Shown here: piece by piece, positions 1,829-45,364 of the stretch
Position numbering within the stretch: the first letter of the stretch is position 1
Layout of the letters: each line of letters begins with the position of its first letter
From: Sipunculus nudus
Taxonomy: Eukaryota; Annelida; Sipuncula; Golfingiida; Sipunculidae
NCBI GenBank assembly: GCA_026874595.1
Contig: CM049306.1
Location: 81,370,142-81,434,141, forward strand
Direction of reading: 5' to 3'
DNA: 64,000 bases
The notes under the pieces: model-generated
What the model was told of the DNA's origin: nothing
What the model saw: the letters and a program-made list of their open reading frames with translations, nothing else
Databases searched by the model: none
Translations under genes and position numbers: made by a program

Positions 1829-4800
1829 CTGTTAAATAAAATAAACAATAAAATAACTCACCTTTATATACATTAAGTTGCAATAATCTGTTTACTAGTA
1901 AACAACAAAATATACAGGTATTGACTAATAAACAAGATTTAGATTTAGTAAAATAAAAGATTTAATTCACAGCACCTGGAAAACCAATCCTGCTAAATTG
2001 CCACCTATAGATATCTAAATCACAATCTATTACCAATTGTAATAACCCACAATCTAAACAAATTTTATTATTACCCCATTATCACTCTCTTATTTGTGTG
2101 CATCAGAGTCAGTTTGGAAAAATATTCTTACAAACAATGTGTAAAGGTTGGCAGTTGATGGTCATGTATGCCAGTTGGTCACTTGATCAAGATAAATTTT
2201 AACTGTAAAATCTATCTGTGCAAGGGAAAATGAAGTCAACGTTATGTGGTCCTTTGATCCAGGGTCTCTAAAACAATATTTGCTTATTTGCAATATTTTC
2301 TTGCTCTTAATATAATATTGACACTTATAATGTGAACACAACATTGATGATATCAAACACTATTGGATCACTAAACTACCTCAGATCTAAAACTCACCAA
2401 GAAATGTACATCAGTCACATCCATAATCTTTGGAGCTCCTCTGGAAAAGTCAAGGAAAACACTTCAAATTGTTGAAAGCACTCTGATTTATGGGAAATAG
2501 TCAATTCAATCATAGTTTCCATTGGCCATTAATTCTGAAATTATAATTTAACAGTAATAGGTGGACCTATAGTTCTGACTGGTGTTTAAATAGTTTCTAC
2601 AACTGAAAAAAAATACCTCTTGATATTATAAATGTAATAACTTTGGGCATAAAAATACCATGTTTTATCAAAACAACTTACCTAAAATTTATAAGTCAAA
2701 AGCAATAAGCAAACTGGTTATATTAATATTTCAGTGATGAAAACATTTTTCCATTTTGACATGTATTCCATCTACTGCCCCTGCTTAAAAAAAGTAAAAG
2801 AACAATATTCCACAGTTTTCAAGGATTTTAATTGTTTAGTTTATTCCAAATAATTTTCCATGATATAAAGGAGTCTTCTACAGAAACTGCATCAATAAAT
2901 GATCCTTGGGCTATGAATGGCTTTAACAATACATCCTTACTTGACTGAGAAGTACAGTGACGCCATCTGGTAGAGGATATTTTTAACAACTTCGTAGCAG
3001 CGGTTGACAAAACACGACAGCTCTTGAAGCATACTCATAATGCGACCAATATGCAGCTGGGCTTCACCATCAGCTAGTCCTCCCTCAGGTTCTGAACAGG
3101 AAACATCAGCAAAATATGAAGTATATAAATATTACACTGATAAAATTAGTACTGCATATATATATATGTATGACCCAAGTATAACTTTATACTGTGCACC
3201 TGTAACAGGCACCTAAAACCCCCTTTATGCCAAATGTATTGCATATTTATTTCAGTTCTAAAGATTAACATTAACATCATAAAGCAAATCAACTTTGTAA
3301 TACCAAATAAATAACCCAAATACCACTCTAAATATAATATAGCAAAAAAATATAGACCTAAATGTGAACAAACTCAAAAACAGTCCCCATCAAACAGTGG
3401 AGTATTACAGAACTTTTATTGGTCAAACTTACTGGTACCACCCTCTCCATAATACAGCAGAGCATTATAAACCTATAGTCTGTCCCTGTACCTGTGTTCG
3501 CATGTTTTTCCTGGGATAGTTCTGATACAAATAAAGCAGTGTGAATCTTTCTAGTCCAAAGGTTGCAGGAGCTATTCCACCAACTATCTGTGTAAAAAGT
3601 AATGCCTTACCTTGCTTTGATTTTGTATGAGACAAACAATCCAAAATATAACAAAACAAGTTACAGAGTTTACGACTTATTCCTTGCCTGAGAACTGATA
3701 ATAAGCAAGCCAGTCAAATTTTTGACATCAGTCAACTGATATTAGGTGACACGCGACTGATCACTGTGATGTCTTTGTGATGTCACTGTTGTCTAACAAA
3801 CACCAAACGCAGCCATAGACATGGAAAGTGTATCATGGAGGAATGTACTGCCGGGAAGATGCCATCCACACTATTTCAGCATAAATTACGCAAAAGAGTC
3901 GCAAAGTTAATGTTTTACATGATATATAACTTCTTTACACAAAATCAGCGGAATATCTGTTTATCTACTTCAGGCCAAATGGCATTTTTAAAGAATATTC
4001 TTAAAATAATCATTGCGAAAAAACATGCTGTAAAACGGGTACTGGGAAGGACTATAGTATGGAAAAACTTACCACCCTCCTCCTAAAACAGCAGAGCGTT
4101 ATAGAATTTGGTATGGACAAACTTACCATCCTCCCCTTCATACAGAAGGGATTTACAGAATCGGGCAGGGACAAAAATACCACCCTCCCCATAAAACAGC
4201 AGAGCATCACAGAACTTGGTATAGACAAACTTACCACCCTTCAAAATGCAGCAGAGCATTATAGAACTTGGTATGGACAAACCTAACACCCTCCCCATAA
4301 ACAGCAGAGCATTATAGAACTTGGTATGGGCAAACCTAACACCCTCCCTATAAACAGCAGAGCATTATAGAACTTGGTATGGACAAACTTTCTACCCTCT
4401 TCATAATTCAGCAGAGCATTATAGAACTCAATATGGACAAACTTGCCACCCTTCATTATACAGAAGAGCATTATAGAACTTGGTAAGGACAAACTTACCG
4501 CCCTCCCCATTATACAGCAGAGAATAATAGAATTTTGTATGTACAAACTTACCACCCTCCCCATAATACAGCAGAGTATTATAGAACTCGGTATGGACAA
4601 ACTTTTCCACCCTCCCCATATGAAAGCAGAGCATTATCGAATTTAGCAGGGACAAACTTATCACCCTCCCCATAATACAGCACAGCATTATACAAATTTG
4701 CATGGCCAAAACTTACCACCCTCCCCATAATACAACAAAGCATTATAGAACTTTGTCTGTGCTTCATGCTTCAATGCTGCAGTTTCTGAACACAGGGCTG

Positions 4801-7800
4801 CAAATACTGTGATGACCTTGTTGAAGACTTTGTTGTCTGTCTTTATCAGCTGTAGCAGGCTCGTCTGTTCATACGGTAGGCACTGTCAAGAAAGTAACAA
4901 AGCTTTAGCATTAGAGCAAATACTGAAATAAAATTTTTCATGTAATCACTGAAATGTGTTTTCCATAATATTGGTATTTTCACATTTCTTGAAAAATTTT
5001 CTCGTAATTTAAAAATATTTGCCTCATTTTACCTGTAACATTAATATACTCACATTTAAAGAAAAATCTGTTTTAGATCAAAGCTTAAAAGTACAGCATC
5101 ATTTTAAATTGTTCAAATGCATGCACATTTACAAGAGCCACCAAAACAATATTTTGTAACAATAGTCTACAGCTTATATACCTGAATGCAGTGAATGTTC
5201 ATGTACACAACTTAGCCTCCACCAAAATAATCAAAACAAATTCAACAAGGGCATCTGGCAGCAAGTCAGATAAGCCAGAGCTTTGCAAATGGCATTTGCA
5301 ACAAGTGACCTTTCTACCTCCGCATATATATGCAACCTACCACCTTAGGTTACATGTTTTTCCCTTTTGTCAACATTGCTGTGTTTACAAACAAGTTGTT
5401 GATAAACAAATTCACACATTTTTCACAAAGGCCTTATAAGAATTTTTCTAACCAAAATTACTCTTAGATAATTAATATATATACAGAGGAAGCCAGAAAT
5501 CACATTAATTCTTTTTTCAAAAGGTCGGTAATTGGGCACCTGTTAATGATTGAGTGCACCACTGCCATAGAAACAAACTAGATGTGTCGGAACGACACGA
5601 ATGCCCCCGCCTTGGGCAAATTAGAAACATTTGTAAAATTTTTTAAGTTCAGGAGGTGTCATATGCTCAAAAGTAGGTCAACAAGGGCAAAATGCAAACT
5701 CGATCTGTAACGGGTCATTATCAAGCAACACACCAAAAATCATGCCAGTATATGCAGGCATTGTGAAAAAAAGGACATACATGTGCATTTTCCATAAAAA
5801 TTTCTGTCTTTCATGAAATTTTCTATGTTTAGGATCCGTAAAACAATCAAAAGTAGGTCAACCAGGATGAAACGCAAACTCGATCTGTAACTGTCATTAT
5901 CTGCCCACACAAAAAAAATCAGGGTGGTATCTGCAGGCATTGAGGAAAAAAAGTCAGTACATATGCATTTGTTATGAAAATTTATATTTTTCATGAAACT
6001 TTCTATGTTCAGTAGCAGTCAAAGGGTCAAAAGTAGGTCAACTGAGACAAAACAGGAACTCGATCTGTAACTGGTCATTATCTGCCTACACACCAAAAAT
6101 CAGGCCCATATCTGCAGGCACTGCGAAAAAAAGTCCATACATGAGCACTTTTTTATGAAATTTTCTATGTGAGAGCACCGCCAAACAGTCAAAAATAGGT
6201 CAACTGGGGCAAAACGCGAACTCCATCTGTAACTGGTCATTGTCTGCCAACACACCAAAAATCAGGCCAATATCTGCAGGCACTGAGAAAAAAAAACCGT
6301 ACATGTGTATTTGTCATGAAATTTCATATTTTTCATGAAATTTTCTATGTTCAGGAGCCGTTGTCACAGAATTATCATGATATCCTTTATTATTATTAAT
6401 TTCACTCTATGTCAAATTCTGTGGCATGTTCTTCTGTGTTCATACCCTGGGGATCTTTAAAACGATTTGCACTCTGTGAACAGGGATTTCCGTGTATTGT
6501 TCTCGCGGGGGTGTTAATAGCGGTCCAGTCTGAATCCAATGCACACACATTTCAGGGAACCAGTGAACCATGCAATGTTGGGGTTGTGTAGCGTCATATG
6601 GTCTCTAGGTAACGATGCCGATATTTTACAGAGGCTACAGTAAATTTTGGCCAATAAGCGCCCGGTAGCGAATTCTGAACGAAAAGGCTCTGAACAAATA
6701 GTTCAGTTGGCAGAAAGACTCCAAGCAGGAAGCTGCAAGCTTCGTAATAGGACAATTTTTGTTATTGGGGCCCCCGAGCCGTGGAGTCGTGTTATTGAAG
6801 GCCAACTCATTTTTTTTTGCTGAATGAACATTGTTGTTGCATATATCAGCCGCATACGTACTCACGTCTGTGTTGTGATTTGTCGGGCCCGGAGACATGG
6901 TGTAGGGGACGAGTCGCTTGAAGTAGAGCCATGGAGACGTGATGCGGTAGACTCCAATGTGACTTGCTGGTGTATCGACACTACTGCCACCAGTCCAGAG
7001 GTCGAGGGACAACCCTGTGTTACTTACCTGTCTGAGGAGTCATAAACACCAACCCATATTGTTTTCGTACACGGTGAGCCTAAGTTCTATTCCTACTGTG
7101 GAAATTTGCCGTAGCCTGTATAATTCTTACAATGTCAAGAATATACTGTAGGCCTACCAATTTGCTGTCTTCTCTTAGTATTATTTTTACAGATATAATC
7201 TAGAGAGATAATTATTCTTCATATCTATTGTTAGTTGTATGACACGCTATGCTGTATTCAATAGTACTTTAGGCCCAATGGCCCAAAACTATCATTAAAT
7301 GGCCCATATGTTCCTACGGGTAAACATCCTATAAATAAAGGGATATTTCATGTAAGTGGCATTACGTCTGCTTTCCCAGTTAAGACCACATAAATAGTAA
7401 ATCCTATAGACATAAATAGGACCTACGAATATTCTTTTTATTTTAACTATAGAACTGAACTGGTCCATTCTACCCTGGTGTGTTGTGAGGGTTCAGACTG
7501 GAGCTGGGGAACGAGCCATAGAAGATTTATGGACGCTTTATAAGCCATCCAAATATCTATTTTCTGTATATATTGTAAATAAAATTTGTTGATGTTTAAA
7601 TGAGCTGTTTCATCTCTTTGTGCAAATGCTTCTGTCTATGCCGAACGAGTCTGGGCAGGGTCAGATTGGAAACTGACCTTGACAGCCCTAAAACGGTCAA
7701 AAGTAGGTCAACCAGGACGAAACGCGAACTCGATCTGTAACTGGTTTATATCTGCTCACACACCAAAAATAAGGCCAATATCTGCAGGCATTGTGAAAAA

Positions 7801-10800
7801 AAGTCCGTACATGTGTATCTGTCATGAATATTTCTATTTTTCATGAATTTTTCTTAGTTTAGGAGCCTTAAAACGGTCAAAAGTAGGTCAACCAGGACGA
7901 AACGCGAACTCGATCTGTAACTGGTCTATATCTGCTCACACACCAAAAATCAGGCCAATATCTGCAGGCATTGCGAAAAAAAGTCCGTACATGTGTATTT
8001 GTCATGAATATTTCTATTTTTCATGAAATTTTCTAAGTTTAGGAGCCGTAAAACGGTCAAAAGTAGGTCAACCAGGACGAAACGCAAACTCGATCTGTAA
8101 CTGGTCTATATCTGCTCACACACCAAAAATCAGGCCAATATCTGCAGGCATTGCGAAAAAAAGTCCGTACATGTGTATCTGTCATGAATATTTCTATTTT
8201 TCATGAAATTTTCTAAGTTTAGGAGCCGTAAAAACGGTCAAAAGTAGGTCAACCGGGACGAAACGCGAACTCGATCTGTAACTGGTCTATATCTGCCCAC
8301 ACACCAAAAATCAGGCCAATATCTGCAGGCATTGCGAAAAAAAGTCCGTACAACTGTTTCATTTCAGAATGACGGAAGGACGGAATGACAGAATGATGGA
8401 ATGACGGACATGGGTAAAACTATATGCCCCAGCCACTTTGTGGCGGGGGCATAAAAAGACAGTAATACACAGAGGGAGGGCTACATTACTTCACTTAATA
8501 AAATTAACTAAACATCCACTGTTGTAAAATATTTTGCTCTTATATAAAAGAAAGTATGAGGATTACTATTAAAGTAATATTGAATCAAGAATTGAACCTA
8601 AGGTAAACAAATGATAATCAAATCTGTTCTCAGCTGAATTTATTCTTCACCCAGCTGAAAATATTACCTTAAGTGCTACGGGATCCAGGGTCATATCCCA
8701 TGCATCACCGATGGACTCATCCAGGGCATCTTCTATCTCCTTCAGCTGACCAGCATACTCCTCCAGGAATTTACCAAACTTCTTCAACTGGACCTCACCC
8801 ACAAGCTCTGAAAATCAAAACACTGATCTGTGTTTGAAAAGAATTAATTGTGATTTCTGGCTTCCTCCGTGTATATATTAATTATCTAAGGGTAATTTGG
8901 TTGTGAAAAGTTCTTCTACGGCCTTTGTGAAGGATGTGTGAACTTGTTTATCAACAACATGTTTGTAAACACAGCAATGTTGACAAAAGGGAAAAACATG
9001 TAACCTAAGGTGATAGGTTGCATATATATGGGGAGGTAGAAAGGTCACTTGTTAAAGATTGTTGCAAACGCCATTTGCAAACTCTGGCTCATCTGACATG
9101 CTGCCACTGAACAACAGAGCTCTCAGCTACATAAATATCTCACAGACTAGACAGTGGAACTACACAGTTAGCTAATATTCTAAATATGCACAGTATTACT
9201 AAAAATATATGTAAATTTAAGCTGTATTTATTTGAATTATTATCAAATTATGAATACCATTTTGAACAATATACCGGTATATTCAGGGTTGTTATTTTTC
9301 CCGGGAAAAACCAGACAGTGGGAAAATCCCGGGATCAATTGGGAATAACTGGGGAAAACTGGTTAGTACCAGGAATTATTGGGGAAAATGTCTGATCAAA
9401 ATTTTTAAAAGAGTATAATTATGTATAGTTAATTAATTCTGTTTAATGTTGCATGTTGAAATTATATTATGTGTGTGTGTGTGTGTATATATATATACAC
9501 ATACATATATACATATATATGCATATATATATATCCACATCTGATGAATATATATATAAATATATATATGTGTACAATATTTCCACAACTCACACTAGTA
9601 CATTACTATTACTTAAGTACTAATTAACTGCAACATAAACTTTAGTAGGTGAGCTGACAAATGTAATCAAGCATGTTAACCTAATCAAGGCCGAGTTAAT
9701 CTTGGGGGTACAGAAGTGTGAAGAAGCCATGCTAGTCATGTAGGGCTCATACAACTAGTTAGCTAGGGTGAGAAGAAACCAACCACCCATTGTGGCATCA
9801 CTTGGGGAAACCCTGTCCAGCATGATGCAGGTAGAAAACCAAGCACTTCATTTCTATGCTAATGTGCCCAAAAGGATACCAGGTTTCATGGCTCTTCTCT
9901 ATATAAGTTGATGTTACTGACTGTCTGCCATAAGTTCTTGTTTTCTGAAGAAGTTAACAAGGCAATGTGAGAGGAGGCAGGCCTATAGATCCTGTGTGGC
10001 AATGTTTCACAAGAATAGAGTTAGCAATTCGCCTTCATCAACTGCCTTCCAGCATAGCATAAATTGAAAGAATTTTTTCAAACTTTGGGCTTGTGCAGTC
10101 CAAACTGCGAAACAGACTAGGACTTGAGAAAACTGCCAAGCTTGTGACATGTTACCGCACCCTGAGAGGTCCATCAGAGATGGATTGGTAAATATGTATC
10201 AATGAACCTTATTTCTTAGCCATCAGTGGACTTTTTCAGTGTAACTGATATATCTGATTATCTGTTTAACTATCACTATGTATATACATACAAACAAGCT
10301 GTTTTTAAGAAAAACAATATAAATCTTGGTTTTGTGATTTGAGTATGTTTGTTTAAATATATATATATTTGTGTGTGTGTGTGTGTGAGATGATATTTCC
10401 CTTTTAATTCAGTCAGATATCTGCTGGTCTCTCCTTTTATAAAATCAGAGGTTTTTCCCAGTTTTTCCCATTTTCCCACTTTGACAGGTTTTTCCAAAGG
10501 CGGTAAATATCTGTATTTACCAGCTGGTAAAAACCGCACTTGGAAAAACTTAACAACCCTGGGTATATTGTATATATTGTTAACCTTTTAGTTCCTTATA
10601 ATATATATATTCTATTAAATATCATAAATATACATGAATATATGTACAGAATAGAATACATAAAAATTTTATAATAAAATTACAACATATGGAAAAGTTA
10701 ATTTGTCAAATAAAAGAAACATGAAGTTGAAAAGTCATGAGGTTCCCATGTTTCTCACATAATAAATACCGTTGGTGTCCCATGTTGATGTTTAAGAAAA

Positions 10801-21187: not shown

Positions 21188-24100
21188 AGAATTCTGAACC
21201 AGAACAAACGGTAGGGACGCAATTGACGCCCGGGCCAGCTCAACAGCGCTTTTTGCAGCCGAGCCAAGGTATGGCACCGTGTTACTTTGACGAGTGGAGG
21301 ACTGGGATTGTTACGTAGAACGTTTTGAGCTATACCTCGTGGCGCAGGGGTTCACATTGGACAGTGAAAGCAATTCGCAGGTAATCGCCCTTTTCCTACA
21401 CTCCCTAGGTACGAAAAATTACGGAGTCATAAGAGACTTGGTCTCACCAGCTAAGCCAAATTCAAAGACTTTCGCAGAACTGAAAGCAATTATGAGGCGA
21501 CATTTGAAGGCGCCCCCTATTGTTGTTGCCGAAAGACGTAAATTCATAAAACGTGACCAAAAGGCAGGCGAGGGTATCGCGGACTACGTAGTAGCACTGA
21601 AACATTTGAGTTTAAACTGCGGGTATGAGGACAAACTTGATGAAAACCTTCGTGATCGTTTTATTAGTGGGCTTACAAGCGAAGCCACGTCTCTTAAACT
21701 GATGGAACGAACTAGAGACCTGCCATCGATGTCATTTCAGTCAGCGGTCGATTTTGCATTGGCCCGAGAAACCACCATAACAGAAACGAAAGAAATAAGG
21801 ACGGGTGAAGCTGAAGATGCAGCAAATGTGAACTATGTTAAGGAGAGAAATCCACATCGGAAAACGGCCAATAGTGGTAATATTAAATGCTACAGGTGTG
21901 GACGTAGCTCGCATACACCAGAGCAGTGCTGGGTTAAGAGTGTGACCTGTAACAGCTGTAAGAAAGTAGGACATATCGCCCGGAAATGCCAGAGCCGTTT
22001 TAACCAGAGGCAGAGTTCGACACGTGGTCGTGGCAGGGGTCGAAAAACACAGGAGCACCAAAAAAGGACACCAAGACCAGTACATCAAGTGGTGGACCTT
22101 GATGATAATACCAGTGACTCTGTTGATAATACCAGTGACTCTGTTGATAATATCAGTGACTCTTGTGATGATAATAGTGCCATTGATTCAAATGATGAAT
22201 GTACTCCATATTCCATTCTAAAGGTTGTGTCAAAAGAGAATGGAAATGCATGTGCTGATGCTATATATGTTACTATGGGTATTGAGCAGGTACAGGTTAA
22301 GATGGAGCTTGATACTGGGTCATCAGTATCAATGATACCTTATGAGATGTATAAAGACAAGTTTTCACATTTGACATTGCATGAGACAAGTAAAATGTTC
22401 TCTAGTTTTACAGGAGAGAAAGTCAAACCTGTAGGTAAATTGGCTGTAAAGGTTAAATACAACAAACAACACAAGAATTTGTGTCTGTATGTGGTTAAAC
22501 ACACTAAGCATGCCTTGCTAGGTAGGAAATGGCTATATGCCATCCGGCTCAACTGGAAACAGTTAGATTTCTCAGAGGTAAGTTCAGATAGCTCGTCAGA
22601 GGTTGTAAACAAGATTGAGATGACGAGGAAACTTGATAGAATATTGGATAAGCATGCAGCCTTGTTTGATGGCAAGCTGGGTAAATTGAAAGGTATCAAG
22701 GCAAGCATCTCTATTGTGGAGGATGCTCAGCCAGTAACAACCAGACCATACAGGGTTCCTTATTCAATGAGGACTCCGGTAGAACAGGAATTAACTAGAT
22801 TGGAAAATTGTGGGGTGTTGACTCCTATAACACACAGTGAATGGAGCACAGGAGTGTTAGCTGTGCCGAAAAAGGATGGTACAGTCAGGCTATGTGGCAA
22901 TTATAAAACTACAGTAAACCCGGTAATTGTACCAGTGGCGCCCCCTAGCATAAACGTGGAAGACATCCTGGCTAATTTAGCCGGTGGTGTCTCCTTTTCT
23001 AAACTAGATCTAGCTCATGCATATAACCAGATGGAGTTAGACGAAGAGTCCAAGAGGTACCTTGTTCTCTCAACGCATAAAGGGCTATTCCAACAAAACA
23101 GATTAGTGTTCGGCATAACCACAGCACCTGCTATCTGGCAGAAGACTATCGAGCAGGTACTGCAGGGTCTACCTGGTGTACAGGTATATTTGGATGACAT
23201 ACTAGTTACAGGTTGTTCAGAGGAGGAACACGTGTCAAATTTAGACATAGTTTTACAGAGGTTAGGTGAATATGGATTGAAGCTCAAGAGGAGCAAGTGT
23301 GACTTCATGTGCCAATCGGTTGAGTACCTTGGTCATGTGATAGATAGACATGGTGTACACAAGTCTCCCTCAAAGGTAGAAGAGATTAGTAATATGCCTC
23401 CCCCTAAAGACTTGTCTGGTCTCAGGTCTTACCTGGGTATGCTGAATTACTATAGGCGGTTTGTGCCAAACCTAGCCAGTGTAATCAAACCTCTCACAGC
23501 AATGCTGGAGAAGGGACAAGCATTTAAATGGTCAGATATTGCTGAGAAGGCTTTTATAGAGTCTAAGCAGATGTTAAAGGACTCTGGGTTTTTAATGCAC
23601 TTCAATCCAGATTTGCCCATTGCTATAGCAACGGATGGTAGTCCAGTAGGTGTAGGCGCCGTCCTTTCACATATCTTACCGAATGGCGAAGAAAGACCGA
23701 TCCAGTTCGCCTCGCGATCTTTGACGAAACCCGAAAGAAATTATCCGCAAATCGAGCGAGAGGCATAAGCCATTCATTTCGCATTGAAGAAGTTTTATAT
23801 GTATATTTATGGGCGGAAATTCACTCTGATTACAGACAACAAACCCTTGACTGTTCTGTTTGGCCCTAGATCAGGTATGCCTACTTTAGCAGCTGAGCGT
23901 ATACAGCGTTGGGCCATGTTCTTAGCCGGTTTTGATTATGAAATTAAATACCGGAAAGCGGAACTTAATGCAAACGCCGATTGCATGTCCAGGCTGCCCG
24001 GTCCAGTCGTGGACATGGCAACTGAACCGTCAATCGCGCACGTTTTTCACATCGATGTTCTGCCATGTTCTCATGACCGTATCCGCAAGACGACTAGGAC

Positions 24101-25505
24101 CGATCCGGTCTTATCTAAAGTTTCCCGATATGTCATAGAAGGTTGGCCAAGAAAACTCACGGATTCTGAGGCAGTTCTTCAGCCTTACTTCCAGCGTAGG
24201 AATGAAATTACGATTGAAAACGGCATTCTGTTGTGGGGTCTGCGCGTAATCGTTCCCCCGAAATGTCGGTCGGCAGTTTTAGACGAACTGCATGAGGGTC
24301 ACATTGGGATCGTTAAAATGAAATCCGTAGCCAGAAGTTACGTTTGGTGGCTCCAGATCGATAGCCATATTGAGAGCAAGTCCAAATGTTGTGAACTATG
24401 CCAGGTTAACCAGAATAACCCTTCACTGGCACCACTTCACCCATGGGTACCAGCATCCAAGCCATGGGAGCGAATACATGTTGATTTTGCGGGTCCCATG
24501 GATAGCCAGGTTTATTTAGTGATTGTAGATGCGTTCTCCAAATGGCCGGAAGTATATTTTATGTCATCAACAACTTCGGATAAGACAATTGAAATTTTGC
24601 GGGAAGTGTTCAGCCGAAATGGCCTACCTCAAATTTTAGTATCTGACAACGGAAGTCAGTTTACATCGGCCGAATTCAAGAAATTTATGGATGGTAATGG
24701 CATAACACACAAATTTAGCGCCCCCTATCATCCAAGTACCAATGGCCAAGCTGAGCGTTTTGTCCAAAGCCTGAAACGTGCATTGAAAGCAGCATCTCGA
24801 GATCATGGTTCCTTGCAAACAAAATTGAGCAGGTTCTTATTGGCTTATAGAAATGCTCCACACTCTGTAACAGGCGAGTCCCCGGCGATGTTGTTTCTAA
24901 AGAGGCCGTTAAGGAATCGTCTAAATAATCTGCGTCCAAACACGGAAAGACGAATGAAAAATCAGTTGCATGAACAAATAGAACATCGAGAGAAATATTC
25001 GAAACACGGGGAGTTCCGTGTGAATGAAACCGTGTGGGTTAGGACTTACAGCGGTAAACAAAAATGGGTACCAGGGGCGGTACTGTCTAAGGATGGTCCT
25101 GTAAACTATACAGTACAAATAGGAGAAAATGTGTGGTGTAGACACATTGAACAGATTATCCCTAGGTGGTGTGATAGTTCTCATCCGTCTGATAAGGAAA
25201 ATGATATTCTCACACAGTTTTCACCGGAATTGACAGAGGTTTTGAGTTATCCAGCATCTGCAGGTCAGACTGATAATTCTCAACCCAAATGTGAAACCGA
25301 TAGTCATTGTCAAGTCAGTGATTTAGGTCAGTTAAATGTCCAAAGTTCTAGTGTTACTGAAAAAGAGGCTGAAGGAAATGGAAATACATGTATATCCTCT
25401 ACTTTTCATGACACACAGAAACCTTCAAGCCCAAGTAAAGTTCAACCAGTGTCAGTTCGGCGTTCTATAAGAATACGGAAGCCACCAGAGAGGCTTAATA
25501 TCTAA
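21184..25505 (+). pseudogene. Broken gag-pol polyprotein gene of the Ty3/gypsy element
   Basis: An ATG at 21184 opens a short frame that ends at 21318. The gag-pol frame proper is open from about 21294, one base out of register, to a TAA at 23766-23768, and continues in the same frame to 25505. Residues below are counted from 21294: two CX2CX4HX4C zinc knuckles (199-212 and 219-232), the protease DTGSS at 340-344, reverse transcriptase with YLDD at 632-635, and RNase H starting with ATDGS near 781. The TAA falls inside RNase H. After it (counting from 23784) come the end of RNase H, an HHCC zinc finger, integrase D234, D288 and E324 with 35 residues between the last two, and a C-terminal GPY-like module. 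All catalytic residues seen are intact; only the two breaks disable it. In the intact family this polyprotein copies and integrates the element. Confidence 0.93.
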
Positions 25506-35800: not shown

Positions 35801-38800
35801 ATGTACCTTAGCACATAAATTTATATGTTTTTTATTAGCACTTTATAACTACACCCAGCGGTTTTTAACGTTGAACACCGGAATCACCCCAGTGCCTGAG
35901 CCTTAAACCTATTGAAGTTGGTACTTGAAACGGAAGAAGAAGATGAATACATCTGTATGGTGCAATGGCATAAAAATATCAGTATGCTACATGTTCTTGA
36001 ATCTAAATATATATTATATATAACAGGAAATTGAATAACATTTTTTAAACTTCAAATATATAAAACATAAACTGTTCAGCTATGGGATAGGGAAAAATTA
36101 ATGGGTGAAATACAGATATATACATGTATACTGATAAAAAGCCTATGAAATGACATGTATCAATGACTGATTTCATATGACACTAGCTTGTCTGCATTTT
36201 TCATTGATTTGAATGTACCGCCTCGGCCGTTGGTCCAGTTGAGTTGATTCGGGTCGTTATATGTATTCATCCAGGTTGTCGTCAGTCCGCAGGGTAAAAA
36301 ACTGGGAAAACTGTGTAAAACTTGAGGAAACCTATCAAGTCAGGCCATGTTAAGTTGATTCGGATCATGTAACATTTATGCCGGGCTTAAGAACATTTTC
36401 GGTGCAAAAAAATAGTTATAAAATATTGTGAGTTGAACCACTGATGTCTGTGTTTCTGGCAGTGGCATGAGTTACCTTAAGACTAACTAGTAGGTCTGAC
36501 GATGTTTGAATAAAACTAATGAACTGTGAAGTTTAATGACGTTGAATGGTTTACCTCCATGCTGACCTCTGATATACAATCGTCCTCGTAGATGCGAAAC
36601 AATGGAACCACTGTTTTGTTATTGTTGCTCACGGGACATTACAGCAGAGGTGTCCTGATCATTTAGCGGTATGTATACCATGCAAGCTTAATTTCCATTG
36701 CTTGTAGTGGCATATTCATACCTTCACTCCAGTGTACAATTTCAGAAATTAGTTCTTACTTTTAAGTTGATAGCTTGGTATCTTTTATCTGGACGATGCT
36801 TGCATAAAAAAGCATTTTTTATTTGTTTTCTGAAACCACCTGAGTTCTCACACCCAGCCTATGGTCTGATCAAATATGGCTGCTTGCATGACATCTGCCA
36901 CTAGAGGTGCCTCAAAATTAAGTCTTGAGATAATTAAATTTTGTACTTGGTATATCCTACATGATTGGTTACGTAAAAAAGGAATGGTTCTAAGGCACTT
37001 TTTTCATAAATCAGTGCGGGCGGGCGATATTTGATTTCTGACCTTTTATGTAAGTTTCGAAAAAAATGTCATCTGATCAAAGTAAAAGAAAGAAAATAAT
37101 AGGATTTTATGACTTAACAGGTGAAAGTACTTCATAACAAATGAAATCTTATCAAAATTGTATTATTTTATTTTCTTGGAACATAAAAATCACAACAAGA
37201 GGACCAGAGGTCACCCGCTTGCCGGAAATGGAATAAAATACAGACAGATAGGGAGACATACAGAGGGCACCTGTAGAAACAGTCATATAAATGAGCAATG
37301 TTTTGGGGGAGCAGAAATGAATAATACGATTATGTATGCATGCTGAAATTGAATAGCTGCAGACCTGCCTAGTGTAAGAGTGACCAAGTTCAAACATTTC
37401 CATTAAATCCCGTTAATGTTGTTTGCCAAGAAAGGCAAGAATTAGTGTGAAATAGTCAGTTTATCATTTCAAGCTGGCCAAATACCGAAAACTAGACCTG
37501 TGTAGCTTTAAATGTCGCCGAGTTATAAGCATTTATGTGAAATCTCGTTTTATCTCGTTTGACGAGATATGGTGCGAGATTGGCCAGTCTTGCAATTGTA
37601 TTGTATCATGTGAAACTGGTCAAATGTTACGAAATGCCGAAAACTAGACTGTATAGCTTAGTACCCGAATTATAAGCATTTCCGTGAAATCTTGTTTTTG
37701 ACAGTCATCAAATGGACAAACAAAAAACGTGACAAACAGACAGACAAATGGACATACGCAACTGACGAATATGTTTGCCGAAATGCTGAGAACCATACCA
37801 TTTATATATGTTTTGGGGGCCTTAGTTCATGCTTATATTTTCCAGATTTCCATACCATGCATATTATATATTTTTTATAATAAACCTACAACTGGGACTA
37901 AGCCGCTGCAGAATTCTACGTGGGTGAATGCAAGGGAAGTGCAATCGGTGCAGTAAAAATGGCAAAAAATTGCGCCTACCAGTTGAGACACTGAATGAGG
38001 GTGCGTTTACGTAAGCCGGGTGTGCGGAACAGGTCCACGAGCGAGCCTTTCCTTGTATGTCCATCCTCGGCCATTTGCGGCATCTGTAGATACAGAGTAC
38101 TATTACTCTATAAATTAACACGAAATGAAACGGACTAAACAAACAAAATACGAAATGTACTGGTTTGAAGCTGATTGTCCTTTAAAAAAACATTATTTAA
38201 AAGACAACGTGAACAGAATATGCAGCAGACTTTACAAATGCAAAGTATCCTAAACATACACTTGTTTTGTGTATAAGTTCCAGATCAAGATCCTCCGGCA
38301 ATTTGGTACCGTTTAGCTTAGCCATACGTTCCAAATTCGCCTTGGCCTCATCGTATCTGCCCTGAGACATTAACCACCTGGGAGACTCCATTAGAAATCT
38401 GTAATAAATACAATTAACATATACAGTAGTACCTTGAAAATATGACCACCACAGAAACCTCGATAAAATGGTCGCATTTACAAGGTGGTTTTCAAAGTCA
38501 GGTCTTATATAAAGAACAAAAAAGAATCGGGGCCTTGAAGAAGTGGTTAAAAGAGGTGGTCCTATGGCAAGATTTTACTGTTCTTATATAGTCATGTATT
38601 TGCATTGGTATCGTTATATTTCCCACTGTCAATGCGTTTATGAAATCCGACCACATGCACAATGAACAGGAACTTCTGGCATTCAACAGTGCATATTGCA
38701 TGTAAGGTGAAGAGTTATTGGTTGGAAAAGAGTTTAAAAGCCTTTGATTGCCTAATCCCAGCACAGTAAATCAATGAAATGGGTTGTTTCCTGCACATTA

Positions 38801-42400: not shown

Positions 42401-43899
42401 TGATAACTTCCCTAAATGACAGAAGCGAGAATATTTCTTTCGGTAATGCCAGGAGTGAAAATATAATTTCGGTAATAAAAGGCGTGAGAATATAAACTTT
42501 GGTAATGACAGGAGTTAGAATAAAACTTCCCTAAATGACAGAAATGAGAATACAACTTTCGGTAATGATTTGAGTGAGAATTTGAACTTTGGTAATGGCA
42601 GAAGTGAAAATATAAATTTCAGTAATGATAGGAGTGAGATTTTAACTCTCGGTATTGAAAGGATTGAGAATAGAACTTCCCTTAATGACAGGAATGATAA
42701 TGTAGGTTTACGTATTTACAGGAATGGAGGTTAACATTTTGATAAAATTGTATAGAGGATGATAAGTAATGATAGGAGTGAGAATGAGCGGAGGCTTAAT
42801 CTATGACATTAGAATTAAACAACGAGACGAGAAAGAATGGAGGTTTAGGCTTAATTTATGTAACGGCAGGGGTGAGAGAGAATAGACAATTACTACTCGG
42901 GAGTTAGAATTTATGTAGTTTTGTGTAAAAAAGGACAGAGAAAGAAGATTAACTTCATGATAGAATGAAAAGGGAATATAGGACCAATGTTTGACAAACA
43001 ACAAAAGTTATGACAGGAACGCGATGGATTAATTTTTCGGGCAGGTTTTAATCACAATAGCGGCCGTCATGACAACCTTGAGACAAGAGCGCTCCAGATA
43101 ATTTGTGTAAATGTTTAGTAGGTAAGCCTAGATATATACAAACTTTACCTGTCTGATACAGAGCCGGCGGAAACAGCTCCTATAAGGTGACCCAGTAGAT
43201 AAACGGTTGAGACCAAAGGGACCATCCAAGAACGCCCACACACTAAACCATACTGTCCAAGCATGAATAAAACCCAACAATGTTATGTAGTTTATAAATA
43301 CAATCAAAGCACGGCCATATACTAATAAAAACCCTACTGTCCTGCAGGAAACAACCAACAATGTCATGTACAAAGGTATGGACCATACAAGAACAACAGA
43401 AACAGCGCGACATTCAACAGCCAGTATAACTCATTTTCATAATTACTTTACCGAGGTTCAAAAGTTTTATGTACTTTTTAATTTACATAAACGGATAAAG
43501 AGTACTTGCCTGTTCTTTTATGGTATAAGTGAAGACACTGCGATCATAAACGTAAGATGAGCAGTCCTTATCACCAACTCCTGAAGACAACACTGTCGTC
43601 CTGTTCCAATTCAAAATGGCGTCATCGGTCACGTTGTTGAAGTCGATGTCGAATACCTTACACTTGCTGTAACTACTGCCATCTGGAGGGATGGCCACGT
43701 ACTTCTGCTGTTCGTGGCTAAGATTCTGCAGTCGGGGTACCTTGCACCAGTGATCAATTTCCGGGGCCATAAAATTGTTCATGAAATTCTGATATCCTGC
43801 GAAGGTGACCGCCATGCCAGAAAAAATTACGCAGATCATTTGATAGAATTTCAGTTGTCCGAGGTCTTTGAATATATCGTCGAAATATAGCGGAGCCAT
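29745..43899 (-). CDS. SLC22-family organic ion transporter (MFS), nine exons
   Basis: The minus-strand exons are 43510-43899, 43149-43252, 41720-41874, 39583-39751, 38260-38398, 37980-38083, 31223-31443, 30395-30579 and 29745-29891. They join in phase to 1,614 bp (537 residues plus stop), the usual SLC22 length. Residues 1-130 hold a cytoplasmic start, one membrane segment and a large extracellular loop with Cys and N-glycosylation sites (NLS, NVT, NRT). The MFS loop motif GSVSDRFGRKR is at 160-170, ESPRW at 277-281 and FGRRPS at about 400. About 12 membrane segments are expected. The family moves organic cations, anions or carnitine-like zwitterions across the plasma membrane; the substrate here cannot be told. 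Intron 1 starts with GC rather than GT. The CDS may end at the TAA at 29745-29747, but a possible GT donor just before it leaves another 3' exon open. Confidence 0.93.
30395..30579 (-). CDS. SLC22-like exon 8
   Basis: Encodes LLGKMFVTASFAMVYLYAGE followed by PTIVRANGVG, a hallmark SLC22 stretch. Acceptor TTTTCAG, donor GTAGGT. Confidence 0.93.
31223..31443 (-). CDS. SLC22-like exon 7
   Basis: Encodes FATSMGYYGLSLSAG and continues through FRFGRRPSQMVSL. Acceptor CTACCAG, donor GTAAGT. It follows the longest intron (6.5 kb), which is filled with repeats. Confidence 0.93.
31746..32413. mobile_element. 668-bp element with perfect 115-bp terminal inverted repeats and 8-bp target duplication
   Basis: 31746-31860 and 32299-32413 are exact reverse complements by eye. 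They are flanked by TTGGTAAT (31738-31745 and 32414-32421). The outer ends are CACAGGCACTCG and its complement. The duplication fits the hAT pattern nTnnnnAn, but the TIR start is not a standard hAT one. The 438-bp centre shows no convincing transposase. It lies in SLC22 intron 6. Confidence 0.88.
32640..34017 (+). repeat. 337-bp tandem array with ACGG tract and terminal hairpin
   Basis: Four core units with the landmark CAGTCTGCAG at 32661, 32998, 33334 and 33673. They are followed by a GGACAGACGGCCGGATGGCC tract and a hairpin at 33987-34017. It is the same family as 16849-19600 in the opposite orientation. Confidence 0.82.
34018..34659. other. Intronic sequence, no exon recognised
   Basis: The minus strand has one 114-codon open frame (34108-34452) without splice structure or a family I recognise. 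I treat it as part of a dispersed repeat. Confidence 0.4.
34660..35945 (+). pseudogene. LINE (CR1/jockey-like) reverse transcriptase relic
   Basis: Reading from 34672 gives DWKNANVAPLFKKGQRYDKT, a stop near 34830, then HGFR, LDFPKAFDKV, GVPQGSVL, INDI, FADDTIIYL and a stop at 35401, with recognisable sequence beyond (NFIRRNTHIS; LPESAVSARTPETFR). About 100 bp between AFDKV and GVPQG is missing. The 3' end carries GAAACGGAAGAAGAAGA near 35930-35945, a typical tail for these LINEs. 5'-truncated and inactive; inserted in SLC22 intron 6. Confidence 0.88.
36975..37190 (-). mobile_element. MITE family M, copy 2 (truncated, reverse)
   Basis: The left inverted end AAAAAGGAATGGTTCT and a GCGGGCGGGCGATATTT interior match family M in reverse. 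The other end is missing. From 35946 to 36974 no feature was recognised. Confidence 0.6.
37470..37770 (+). repeat. Two ~150-bp units with a (GACA)n-like tract
   Basis: CCGAAAACTAGAC and TATAAGCATTT..GTGAAATC occur twice about 150 bp apart. They are followed by GACAAACAGACAGACAAATGG. The layout is again like pearl/HINE elements, but no hairpin was found. Confidence 0.45.
37980..38083 (-). CDS. SLC22-like exon 6
   Basis: Encodes GSLVDLFRTPGLRKRTLIQC, matching the family's loop before membrane segment 7. Acceptor CTACAG, donor GTAGGC. Confidence 0.92.
38260..38398 (-). CDS. SLC22-like exon 5
   Basis: Encodes FLMESPRWLMSQGRYDEA, the conserved cytoplasmic loop of SLC22 proteins. Acceptor TTACAG, donor GTATGT. 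Confidence 0.93.
39441..39535. repeat. (TA)n microsatellite
   Basis: Almost pure AT dinucleotide repeat just downstream of SLC22 exon 4 in transcript direction. Confidence 0.95.
39583..39751 (-). CDS. SLC22-like exon 4
   Basis: Encodes METVGPRYRLALSMIFHNWF followed by two hydrophobic segments. Acceptor TTACAG, donor GTAAGT. Confidence 0.92.
40087..40435 (+). mobile_element. MITE family M, copy 3
   Basis: Inverted ends AGGCC..AAAAAAAGGT and AACC(T)nGCCT, with internal CTCAGGCACCGCC and GTGCCTGAGAACC. Confidence 0.7.
40605..40865 (+). repeat. Dispersed repeat with CCAAT motifs, copy 1
   Basis: Shares GTTTACACGC..GAGCCAATCAGATT, CAGCGTGTGA.TGGAAGG and GTCACGCGCTGTGTTCAGA with 53300-53530. The distal part (ATCATGTAGCGGTATGTAT) also matches about 36656-36680. 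Confidence 0.6.
41720..41874 (-). CDS. SLC22-like exon 3
   Basis: Encodes FGRKRTLLGLLFVGF followed by APNYGIFVSLRLICG. Acceptor ATTCCAG, donor GTAAGT. Confidence 0.93.
42255..42730 (+). repeat. ~30-bp minisatellite
   Basis: About 15 imperfect copies of a GGTAATGACAGGAGTGAGAA-type unit, in SLC22 intron 2. The Asn/Asp-rich open frame through it is a repeat artefact. Confidence 0.85.
43149..43252 (-). CDS. SLC22-like exon 2
   Basis: Encodes YGLVCGRSWMVPLVSTVYLL and continues to GSVSDR, the segment before the MFS loop. Donor GTAAAG. Confidence 0.92.
43510..43899 (-). CDS. SLC22-like exon 1
   Basis: Starts MAPLYFDDIFKDLGQLKFYQ, a typical SLC22 N-terminus, and ends at YTIKEQ. The donor is GCAAGT (complement of 43504-43509), which keeps phase with exon 2; the nearby GT would not. 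Confidence 0.92.
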
Positions 43900-45364
43900 T
43901 GTTGTCTTTTGTCTGAAGTATATTCCGTATCAATTCATAACAACACCTGCACCTGTAATTGACACATACATTTGAACTTCCATTTAACTGAAGGTTCACA
44001 TAATGCAGTGCCCATATCAAGATTTAGATACCTTTAAATTACTAAGATTAGACTCATTTTAGAAACCTTTATATCACACTTGCCGGTACTCCTACGAAGA
44101 CCTTAATAATAAGTATTTAAATCACATTGATGACGTCACAACCCTTTAGTTCAGAAAAGTAAATTTCTGATTCAGATTATTAGATCATTCCGAGCACACC
44201 TTGCTCTCAAGTCAAGTCTAGGATGCTCTTGACACCACCTTTTAGATCAGACCGTGGAGGATCCATCCAGGCCTCTTTGGATAATACTGAAGAGGTTCAT
44301 CTCAGAGGCCTTATGATCAGACCGAGCTAGTTCCTGCCACAATCTTTTTGTTTTAATCCAGGGGCGGATCCAGGACTTATGACAAAGCCTAAAAAAGGTC
44401 CCCAGGTCCGGGAAAGAAGGGGGTCCAGCCGTCCAGGCCGCGAAAATTGGCCTGAAACCCTTAAGAAAGGTTGCGGCGGCTGAAAAAGAGGGGTCCGGAC
44501 CCCCTTGACCGCCCCCCCCCCCCCCCCCCGATCAGCTTGTCTTACCGGAGATAATTCTGCCAGTCCTCTTAATTTAATAAGATCGTGTAAGTTCCTATCA
44601 CAACCGTTCTGGTCTGACCGAGGGAATTTTCTAAAACCTCTATTAAATAGACCGTGCAAGTTCCTACCAAAACATTCCGGAACTAATGAAGATTAATCCT
44701 CTCATACCTCTTGAGACCAGCCTAATTAAGTCCCTGACAACCCTTTATTTTTTTTTGTCCTGGGAGGTTACTCTAAGATCTCTTCTTGAAATTTAGCTCA
44801 CACAGGAGAGTACGTTTTATAGTCCATTCCACCAATGAGCGCAAACTGTATTTTTTGTTATGAAATGTTCTTGTGCGAGACACAGACAATAATATTTATC
44901 GCGAGCGCTTGGGGAGATTATTTCGAGAGCACGCGATAAGTACTACCTGCGACCTCGTTTACGTGTCATGTTAGATAAATCCCTATTTAGGTAAAGGACT
45001 ACTGTTTTGTGTAAAATTCAAAGGAGAATCAACTTAAATTTATTATTGTTTTCCTTACTATAGTCCCCTCATGTCAACTTGTCTTTTGCTATGAAAATTT
45101 TTATTTGTTACATTTCAAGAGAAACAATTATAGTGTAGAGCAGAGGATTAAAGGACCTTATTTTCAACCAGGTTAATAAATACCTACCTTACACTTTATT
45201 TCAGAAATAGAAATATTTGAAACCATGAGAAATCAGTTTACTTTTTACAACATATCAGACCCACGTAAGCCGGTCAAGGTCATTGGTCACATGCAAAAAC
45301 TGCTTCAGTTGACAGCTTCTGATTGGATGATGTCATGTAAACACTCCAAAAAACATAATAAGCT
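43900..45364. other. Upstream flank of the SLC22-like gene
   Basis: No exon recognised. 44343-44530 holds CCAGGGGCGGATCCAGGACTT and a poly-C run, one end of a common hAT-like repeat without a matching other end. Confidence 0.45.

Follow-up and report, generated by a model that had tools for sequence, protein, structure and literature searches.

The human gene 6-16 (G1P3/IFI6) is said to hold a minisatellite that touches an exon-intron border, has a 12-bp unit consisting mostly of the splice donor consensus itself and differs in copy number between individuals. This is reportedly the gene of Turri et al. 1995, a work that by its title describes an interferon-induced transcript with a minisatellite providing multiple splice donors and that would be the closest precedent for the locus considered here. 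In the relevant passages of two later papers, it is cited for effects on splicing. Tandem duplication over the junction between intron 1 and exon 2 has been described as creating a new intron (PMC4974935), and in Drosophila novel intron positions have been traced to tandem duplication of coding sequence with a proto-splice site (PMC2891723). Among invertebrates, intron 3 of the abalone TSSK1-like gene contains a minisatellite with a 27-bp unit that varies between individuals (PMC6905558), and the earthworm metallothionein genes are accompanied by repeats and by unused exon-4 duplications outside the transcript (PMC12783039); for all four papers, these statements extend to the passages concerned. 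Here, we describe a 64,000-nucleotide (nt) stretch of the Sipunculus nudus genome (assembly GCA_026874595.1, contig CM049306.1, positions 81,370,142 to 81,434,141), referred to as the window, in which an intron of WASHC4 carries a minisatellite whose 54-bp unit likely derives from the end of the preceding exon together with its splice donor.

WASHC4 lies on the minus strand, where three neighbouring open reading frame (ORF) pieces match adjoining positions of the Pfam profile WASH-4_N (Table 1). The exon borders were placed by eye at AG and GT; three WASHC4 exons were mapped in all, and that at 4882-4717 is the "exon 3" of the original prediction, made from the sequence alone, whose numbering it follows. 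Joining this exon at its first GTAAGT to the next one (3091-2941) yields a single in-frame protein, and with regard to intron gain by tandem duplication, the joined exons hit adjoining profile positions without trace of an additional intron. Within the intron that follows, Tandem Repeats Finder (TRF) delineates a 54-bp array at 4057-4753, with 13.0 copies, 80% matches and a score of 816. The unit comprises about 40 nt of exon end and about 14 nt of intron start and recurs 12 times downstream. From the exon end through the 12 intronic units, the lengths are 54, 55, 55, 54, 54, 52, 54, 53, 53, 52, 54, 54 and 54, half of the intronic ones (6/12) not being divisible by 3. The first spacing, originally given as 58 bp, is 55 in register (4716 to 4661).

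The coding part of the exon end differs from the array consensus in 2 of the 34 aligned columns, both changes being synonymous by inspection. The intronic tail after GTAAGTTT matches the consensus less well, so that the whole exon unit shows 10 differences in alignment; in a separate comparison, it is 81.5% identical to the consensus. Locally aligned with the remainder of the intron, the exon end reaches a best score of 73, compared with a mean of 19.5 and a maximum of 32 in 1000 dinucleotide shuffles. Because its coding part matches the array consensus, the WASHC4 exon is the likely source of the repeat. The start of the source differs by method (4753 by TRF, 4752 by local alignment, 4759 by blastn and 4756 by eye). 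Thus, the original view of the repeat as exon-derived and donor-bearing, with the authentic exon end as the first unit in transcript order (its ORF matching WASH-4_N at E 6.6e-20) and about a dozen decoys behind it, at least five of them with GTAAGT, is borne out by 12 units, five of which are intact at the donor.

The array proved to be longer than first described: its presence was correctly called, but its end was not, since two more units, u13 and u14, lie past an inserted element. Unit u13 is clear (85% identity to the consensus), whereas u14 is a weaker call (70%). A fifteenth unit was sought from 3356 onward, and none is claimed because the alignment score of 47 falls within the range of 300 shuffles (maximum 51). 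Pairwise, u1-u14 differ by 22.5% on average (range 3.8-38.9%), only 2 positions separating u7 from u8, and most supports in a tree of the array units are low. When the array was searched against all 153 contigs of the genome (1.43 Gb), with scoring limited to the best candidates and very common words skipped, this locus and the remnant at window positions 3351-3469 were the only matches; the unit core had no match in viral contigs.

The element that separates u12 from u13 is bounded by 26-nt inverted repeats (3473-3498 and 4032-4057) that are 81% complementary. When it is removed and a 7-bp direct repeat is reduced to a single copy, the rejoined flanks match the array consensus in a 57-bp alignment that contains one gap. 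The element is dispersed in the genome, with at least 46 matches, including the window's own and some partial neighbours, obtained from 40 candidates scored out of 2036 at first look. Terminal inverted repeats and many dispersed copies are thus both present, and the element is an interspersed inverted-repeat one resembling miniature inverted-repeat transposable elements. The eight full copies compared start with TATAG and finish with CTATA, and therefore a TA target-site duplication is indistinguishable from the repeat end. The window's copy is 9.8-10.5% different from the seven others, which are the best matches rather than a random sample and differ by 0.7-6.3% among themselves. Judged from the anatomy alone, the array predates the insertion. 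A lone strong donor-like site (AAG/GTAAGG at 3610, minus strand) also lies inside the element, with a predicted U1 energy of -10.0 kcal/mol, better than that of the authentic donor.

Besides the exon unit, 5 of the 12 intronic units have an intact GTAAGT, or 6 of 14 when u13 is counted. As to the decoy positions originally proposed, 4229 and 4121 stand, while 4546, 4492 and 4066 were each off by one (4547, 4493 and 4067). For the five decoys, the predicted energy of the U1 duplex lies between -9.1 and -9.3 kcal/mol, as compared with -9.1 for the authentic donor; the U1 5' end used for the pairing is present in all six U1 loci fetched from this genome. In u13, the GTAAGT (3432-3427) is preceded by a 6-nt insertion and reaches a predicted energy of only -5.6 kcal/mol. 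Seven GT sites of the intron pair at -9.1 kcal/mol or better, namely, the authentic donor, the five decoys and the site at 3610, compared with a mean of 0.97 and a maximum of 5 in 60 mononucleotide shuffles of the intron. Over the whole window, both strands included, GTAAGT is not in excess (29 matches versus 32.6 expected).

The normal exon junction lies in codon 56, and extension of the exon to any of the 12 downstream positions examined, whether or not a GT stands there, ends in a stop at codon 65, in agreement with the earlier expectation that downstream donor use would truncate the protein through a nearby TAA. Because all 12 give the identical early stop, only the first donor is predicted to yield WASHC4 and, as it alone does so, it is presumably the one mainly used; likewise, the intact WASHC4 frame across three exons suggests that the first donor wins. 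Messages with an early stop are degraded by nonsense-mediated decay.

Whether the donor copies have been retained by selection was assessed from within the array and from the genome. Five of the 12 units preserve GTAAGT, whereas the average hexamer of the unit (49 in all) survives in 6.16, and 18 of the 49 do no better than GTAAGT; with 14 units in strict register, the corresponding figures are 5 of 14 and a mean of 6.73. The donor columns are indistinguishable from the other columns of the unit (permutation 0.74 and 0.36, two tails). Changes at codon positions 1, 2 and 3 number 17, 13 and 12, of 132 each, and by type include 8 synonymous, 25 nonsynonymous and 3 stop, where 23 synonymous and 76 other changes are possible. 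Genome-wide, GGTAAGT triplets with 30-60 base spacing amount to 3770 (1151 forward, 2619 reverse), against 3421 (1972 forward, 1449 reverse) for the reversed control pattern, counts that are non-independent because the matches cluster in long arrays; there is no clear genomic excess of donor-bearing arrays. Hexamer retention, codon-position spread and triplet counts together reject clear selection to keep the donors, and the units are decaying without detectable constraint.

We therefore consider it quite probable that the minisatellite was born at an exon edge, expanded and was split by the element; it resembles a repeat of chance origin that now decays slowly, without visible constraint, in a genome rich in repeats. 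A tandem duplication would have taken approximately the last 40 nt of the exon together with some 14 nt of the intron, and slippage or unequal exchange may then have raised the number of intronic units to no fewer than 13 and probably to 14. The inverted-repeat element of about 580 bp inserted later, splitting the array, whose units show no detectable constraint within the intron. With five copies intact, downstream donors are probably used at a low level at most, and the resulting early-stop messages would be degraded.

The genomic background fits such an origin. Arrays with a period of 20-100 and at least 4 copies were found 3 times in 40 kb sampled (eight 5-kb stretches picked by position, TRF score of 100 or more) and 4 times in the window, including the WASHC4 array. 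As a rough estimate, a density of about 60-75 arrays per Mb with 54-bp units would place an array across approximately 0.3-0.4% of exon ends if placement were random; with an assumed 150,000-200,000 exon ends, several hundred exon-edge arrays would roughly be expected before selection. Because several hundred are expected, on a small sample and an assumed exon number, one exon-edge array is unsurprising. Among the matches listed, three other GGTAAGT arrays on one contig (C1) showed no obvious exon by ORFs in 3 of 4 stretches, no family search having been made. Two GTAAGT-bearing minisatellites on this contig consist of 61 copies of 45 bp (C1:883000-889500) and of 95 copies of 61 bp (C1:1726500-1733500), the latter running past the end of the stretch, with its upstream border outside.

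Several observations weigh against the neutral account. Divergence is uneven along the unit: the last six columns reach 0.236, compared with 0.139 for the donor, 0.105 for the main coding part and 0.073 for the intronic tail. The case for neutrality is built on within-array statistics from 12-14 short units with a shared history, and as units that are few and related are non-independent, such statistics would miss weak selection acting on a few donors. Beside a coding exon, five copies retain their full predicted U1 pairing where shuffles average 0.97 such sites, a pattern that could also resemble a regulated site. Finally, the evidence comes from the DNA sequence of one assembly, representing one individual of one species.

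The alternative that survives best is a donor-competition rheostat, in which spare donors are used, the identical early stop causes the message to be degraded and WASHC4 output is governed by how many units are intact. It draws on the equality of the five decoys with the authentic site in predicted pairing to a U1 5' end that the fetched U1 genes do hold, on the near-copy of exonic sequence upstream of each decoy and on the common stop reached from 12 of 12 downstream positions. In human cells, moreover, SRSF1 binding immediately upstream of a pair of competing donors represses the more intron-distal of them, according to the relevant passage of PMC5585400, and the authentic donor here is the most intron-distal. 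Yet GTAAGT is kept no better than other hexamers and donor-bearing arrays lack clear genome enrichment, and we regard the rheostat as unlikely. A form of it in which the number of intact units perhaps varies between individuals, and thereby sets the amount of WASHC4 because all spare donors lead to one stop, appears marginally more doubtful still.

A second alternative, that U1 binds to the array but no splicing follows, so that the real donor is starved of U1 or the transcript is guarded against premature polyadenylation, is very improbable. It would account for the seven strongly pairing intron sites, well above the shuffle mean of 0.97 and maximum of 5. However, the U1 genes are multicopy (at least 42 matches, all at 162 bits), for which reason a single intron is unlikely to deplete U1, and the decay of the units looks neutral. 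The original suggestion of U1 sequestration, in the sense of an array retained as a sink, accordingly finds no backing either in GTAAGT retention (5 of 12, below the mean of 6.16) or in the triplet counts (3770 versus 3421 in the control). The U1 small nuclear RNA genes themselves form two clusters on another contig (C6, 50.26-50.37 Mb and 88.24-88.30 Mb), most neighbours being spaced by about 2.8-2.9 kb.

Chance similarity or an assembly artefact, for which nothing was found in favour, can be given hardly any weight: the exon-array score of 73 stands far from the shuffle maximum of 32, a diverged inserted element interrupts the array and, because the 14 units differ by 22.5% on average, an assembly error at this place is unlikely. 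Least probable of all is a translated repeat, an alternative coding extension in 18-residue units, which is refuted for this allele, despite the open 18-codon frame of the consensus unit (by inspection), by the stop at codon 65 inside u1, the 6 of 12 unit lengths that are not multiples of 3 and the lack of a codon-position bias.

Table 1. Positions of the WASHC4 exons, repeat units, donor sites and inserted element in the window
Feature	Position	Strand	Basis and remarks
WASHC4 exon, preceding	8668..8807	-	Pfam WASH-4_N positions 1-37, E 5.4e-7
WASHC4 exon with the likely repeat source, 166 nt	4717..4882	-	Phase 0 in, phase 1 out; WASH-4_N positions 37-90, E 6.6e-20
Exon end, likely source of the repeat, ~36-40 nt	4717..4756	-	2 differences in 34 coding columns
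Authentic donor GTAAGT	4711..4716	-	U1 energy -9.1; sole one of 13 positions examined with an open frame into the next exon
TAA reached by every extended exon	4688..4690	-	Codon 65, inside u1; coordinates counted from the codon number
Intronic units u1-u12, 52-55 bp each	4053..4696	-	TRF and unit alignment; u12 shares its final few bases with the end of the element
Decoy donor, u3	4547..4552	-	GTAAGT, U1 energy -9.1
Decoy donor, u4	4493..4498	-	GTAAGT, U1 energy -9.3
Decoy donor, u9	4229..4234	-	GTAAGT, U1 energy -9.1
Decoy donor, u11	4121..4126	-	GTAAGT, U1 energy -9.1
Decoy donor, u12	4067..4072	-	GTAAGT, U1 energy -9.1
Dispersed inverted-repeat DNA element within the array, ~580 bp	3473..4057		Terminal repeats, genome copies, rejoined flanks
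Units u13 and u14	3358..3472	-	blastn 3469-3384, E 1.3e-16; 3412-3321, E 3.4e-5
WASHC4 exon, next	2941..3091	-	Pfam WASH-4_N positions 88-141, E 5.7e-13

The surroundings of the array contain further repeats. In the intron upstream of exon 4882-4717, tandem repeats with a period of 162-180 bp occupy 5667-6324 and 7684-8352, the second block with 96% matches, and an inverted repeat pair (5300-5516 and 8837-9053; 217 nt, 90% complementary) lies on either side of the WASHC4 exon at 8807-8668. Inverted repeat pairs can promote the formation of circular RNA from the exon that they enclose. Elsewhere in the window, two adjoining ORFs of 825 and 578 amino acids on the plus strand (21291-25505), with a stop between them, have by eye the look of a Ty3/gypsy-type retrotransposon, and ORFs on the minus strand (38197-38574 and 43483-43929) resemble, again by eye, exons of an SLC22-type organic ion transporter. 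Searches for WASHC4 relatives confirmed none of 10 pattern stretches in viral contigs and none of 89 stretches in bacterial and archaeal genomes; solved structures gave no match at E up to 10, and Rfam gave none on the 64-kb window at gathering scores.

The locus represents a natural experiment on how the spliceosome chooses among equally strong 5' splice sites: the real donor stands first in the row, and its five rivals are equal in predicted U1 pairing and are preceded by near-copied exonic sequence. Each wrong choice would leave a distinct junction, all of them reaching one stop. More generally, a minisatellite can arise across a coding exon edge and last until it is split by a mobile element, and further exon-edge arrays may exist in a genome so rich in arrays.

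No description of an exon-end donor array was found among the titles and abstract starts of one open-access library, where the gene name was barely queried, which is weak evidence of absence. Like the system of Turri et al. 1995, as its title presents it, the WASHC4 minisatellite has units that supply multiple putative splice donors, 5 of the 12 carrying one predicted to be as strong as the real site (-9.1 to -9.3 versus -9.1 kcal/mol), and like the repeat reportedly described there, it touches an exon-intron border, its first unit being the exon end. In contrast to the repeat reported for 6-16, the unit is 54 bp long, with about 40 coding nucleotides, and the gene is unrelated. The array resembles those of abalone and earthworm (PMC6905558, PMC12783039) in being an intronic minisatellite of an invertebrate gene, but differs from what the passages concerned describe in that its unit is exon-derived and includes the donor. 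As in the intron-gain case of PMC4974935, a tandem duplication crosses a splice border and copies its signals, whereas here many donor copies lie within an intron and no further intron is implied. As in Drosophila (PMC2891723), duplicated exonic sequence is involved, here turned intronic, but the duplication forms an array, while the passage cited describes duplications of proto-splice sites. The WASHC4 minisatellite is thus a real feature that is better described as belonging to a known type than as a new mechanism.

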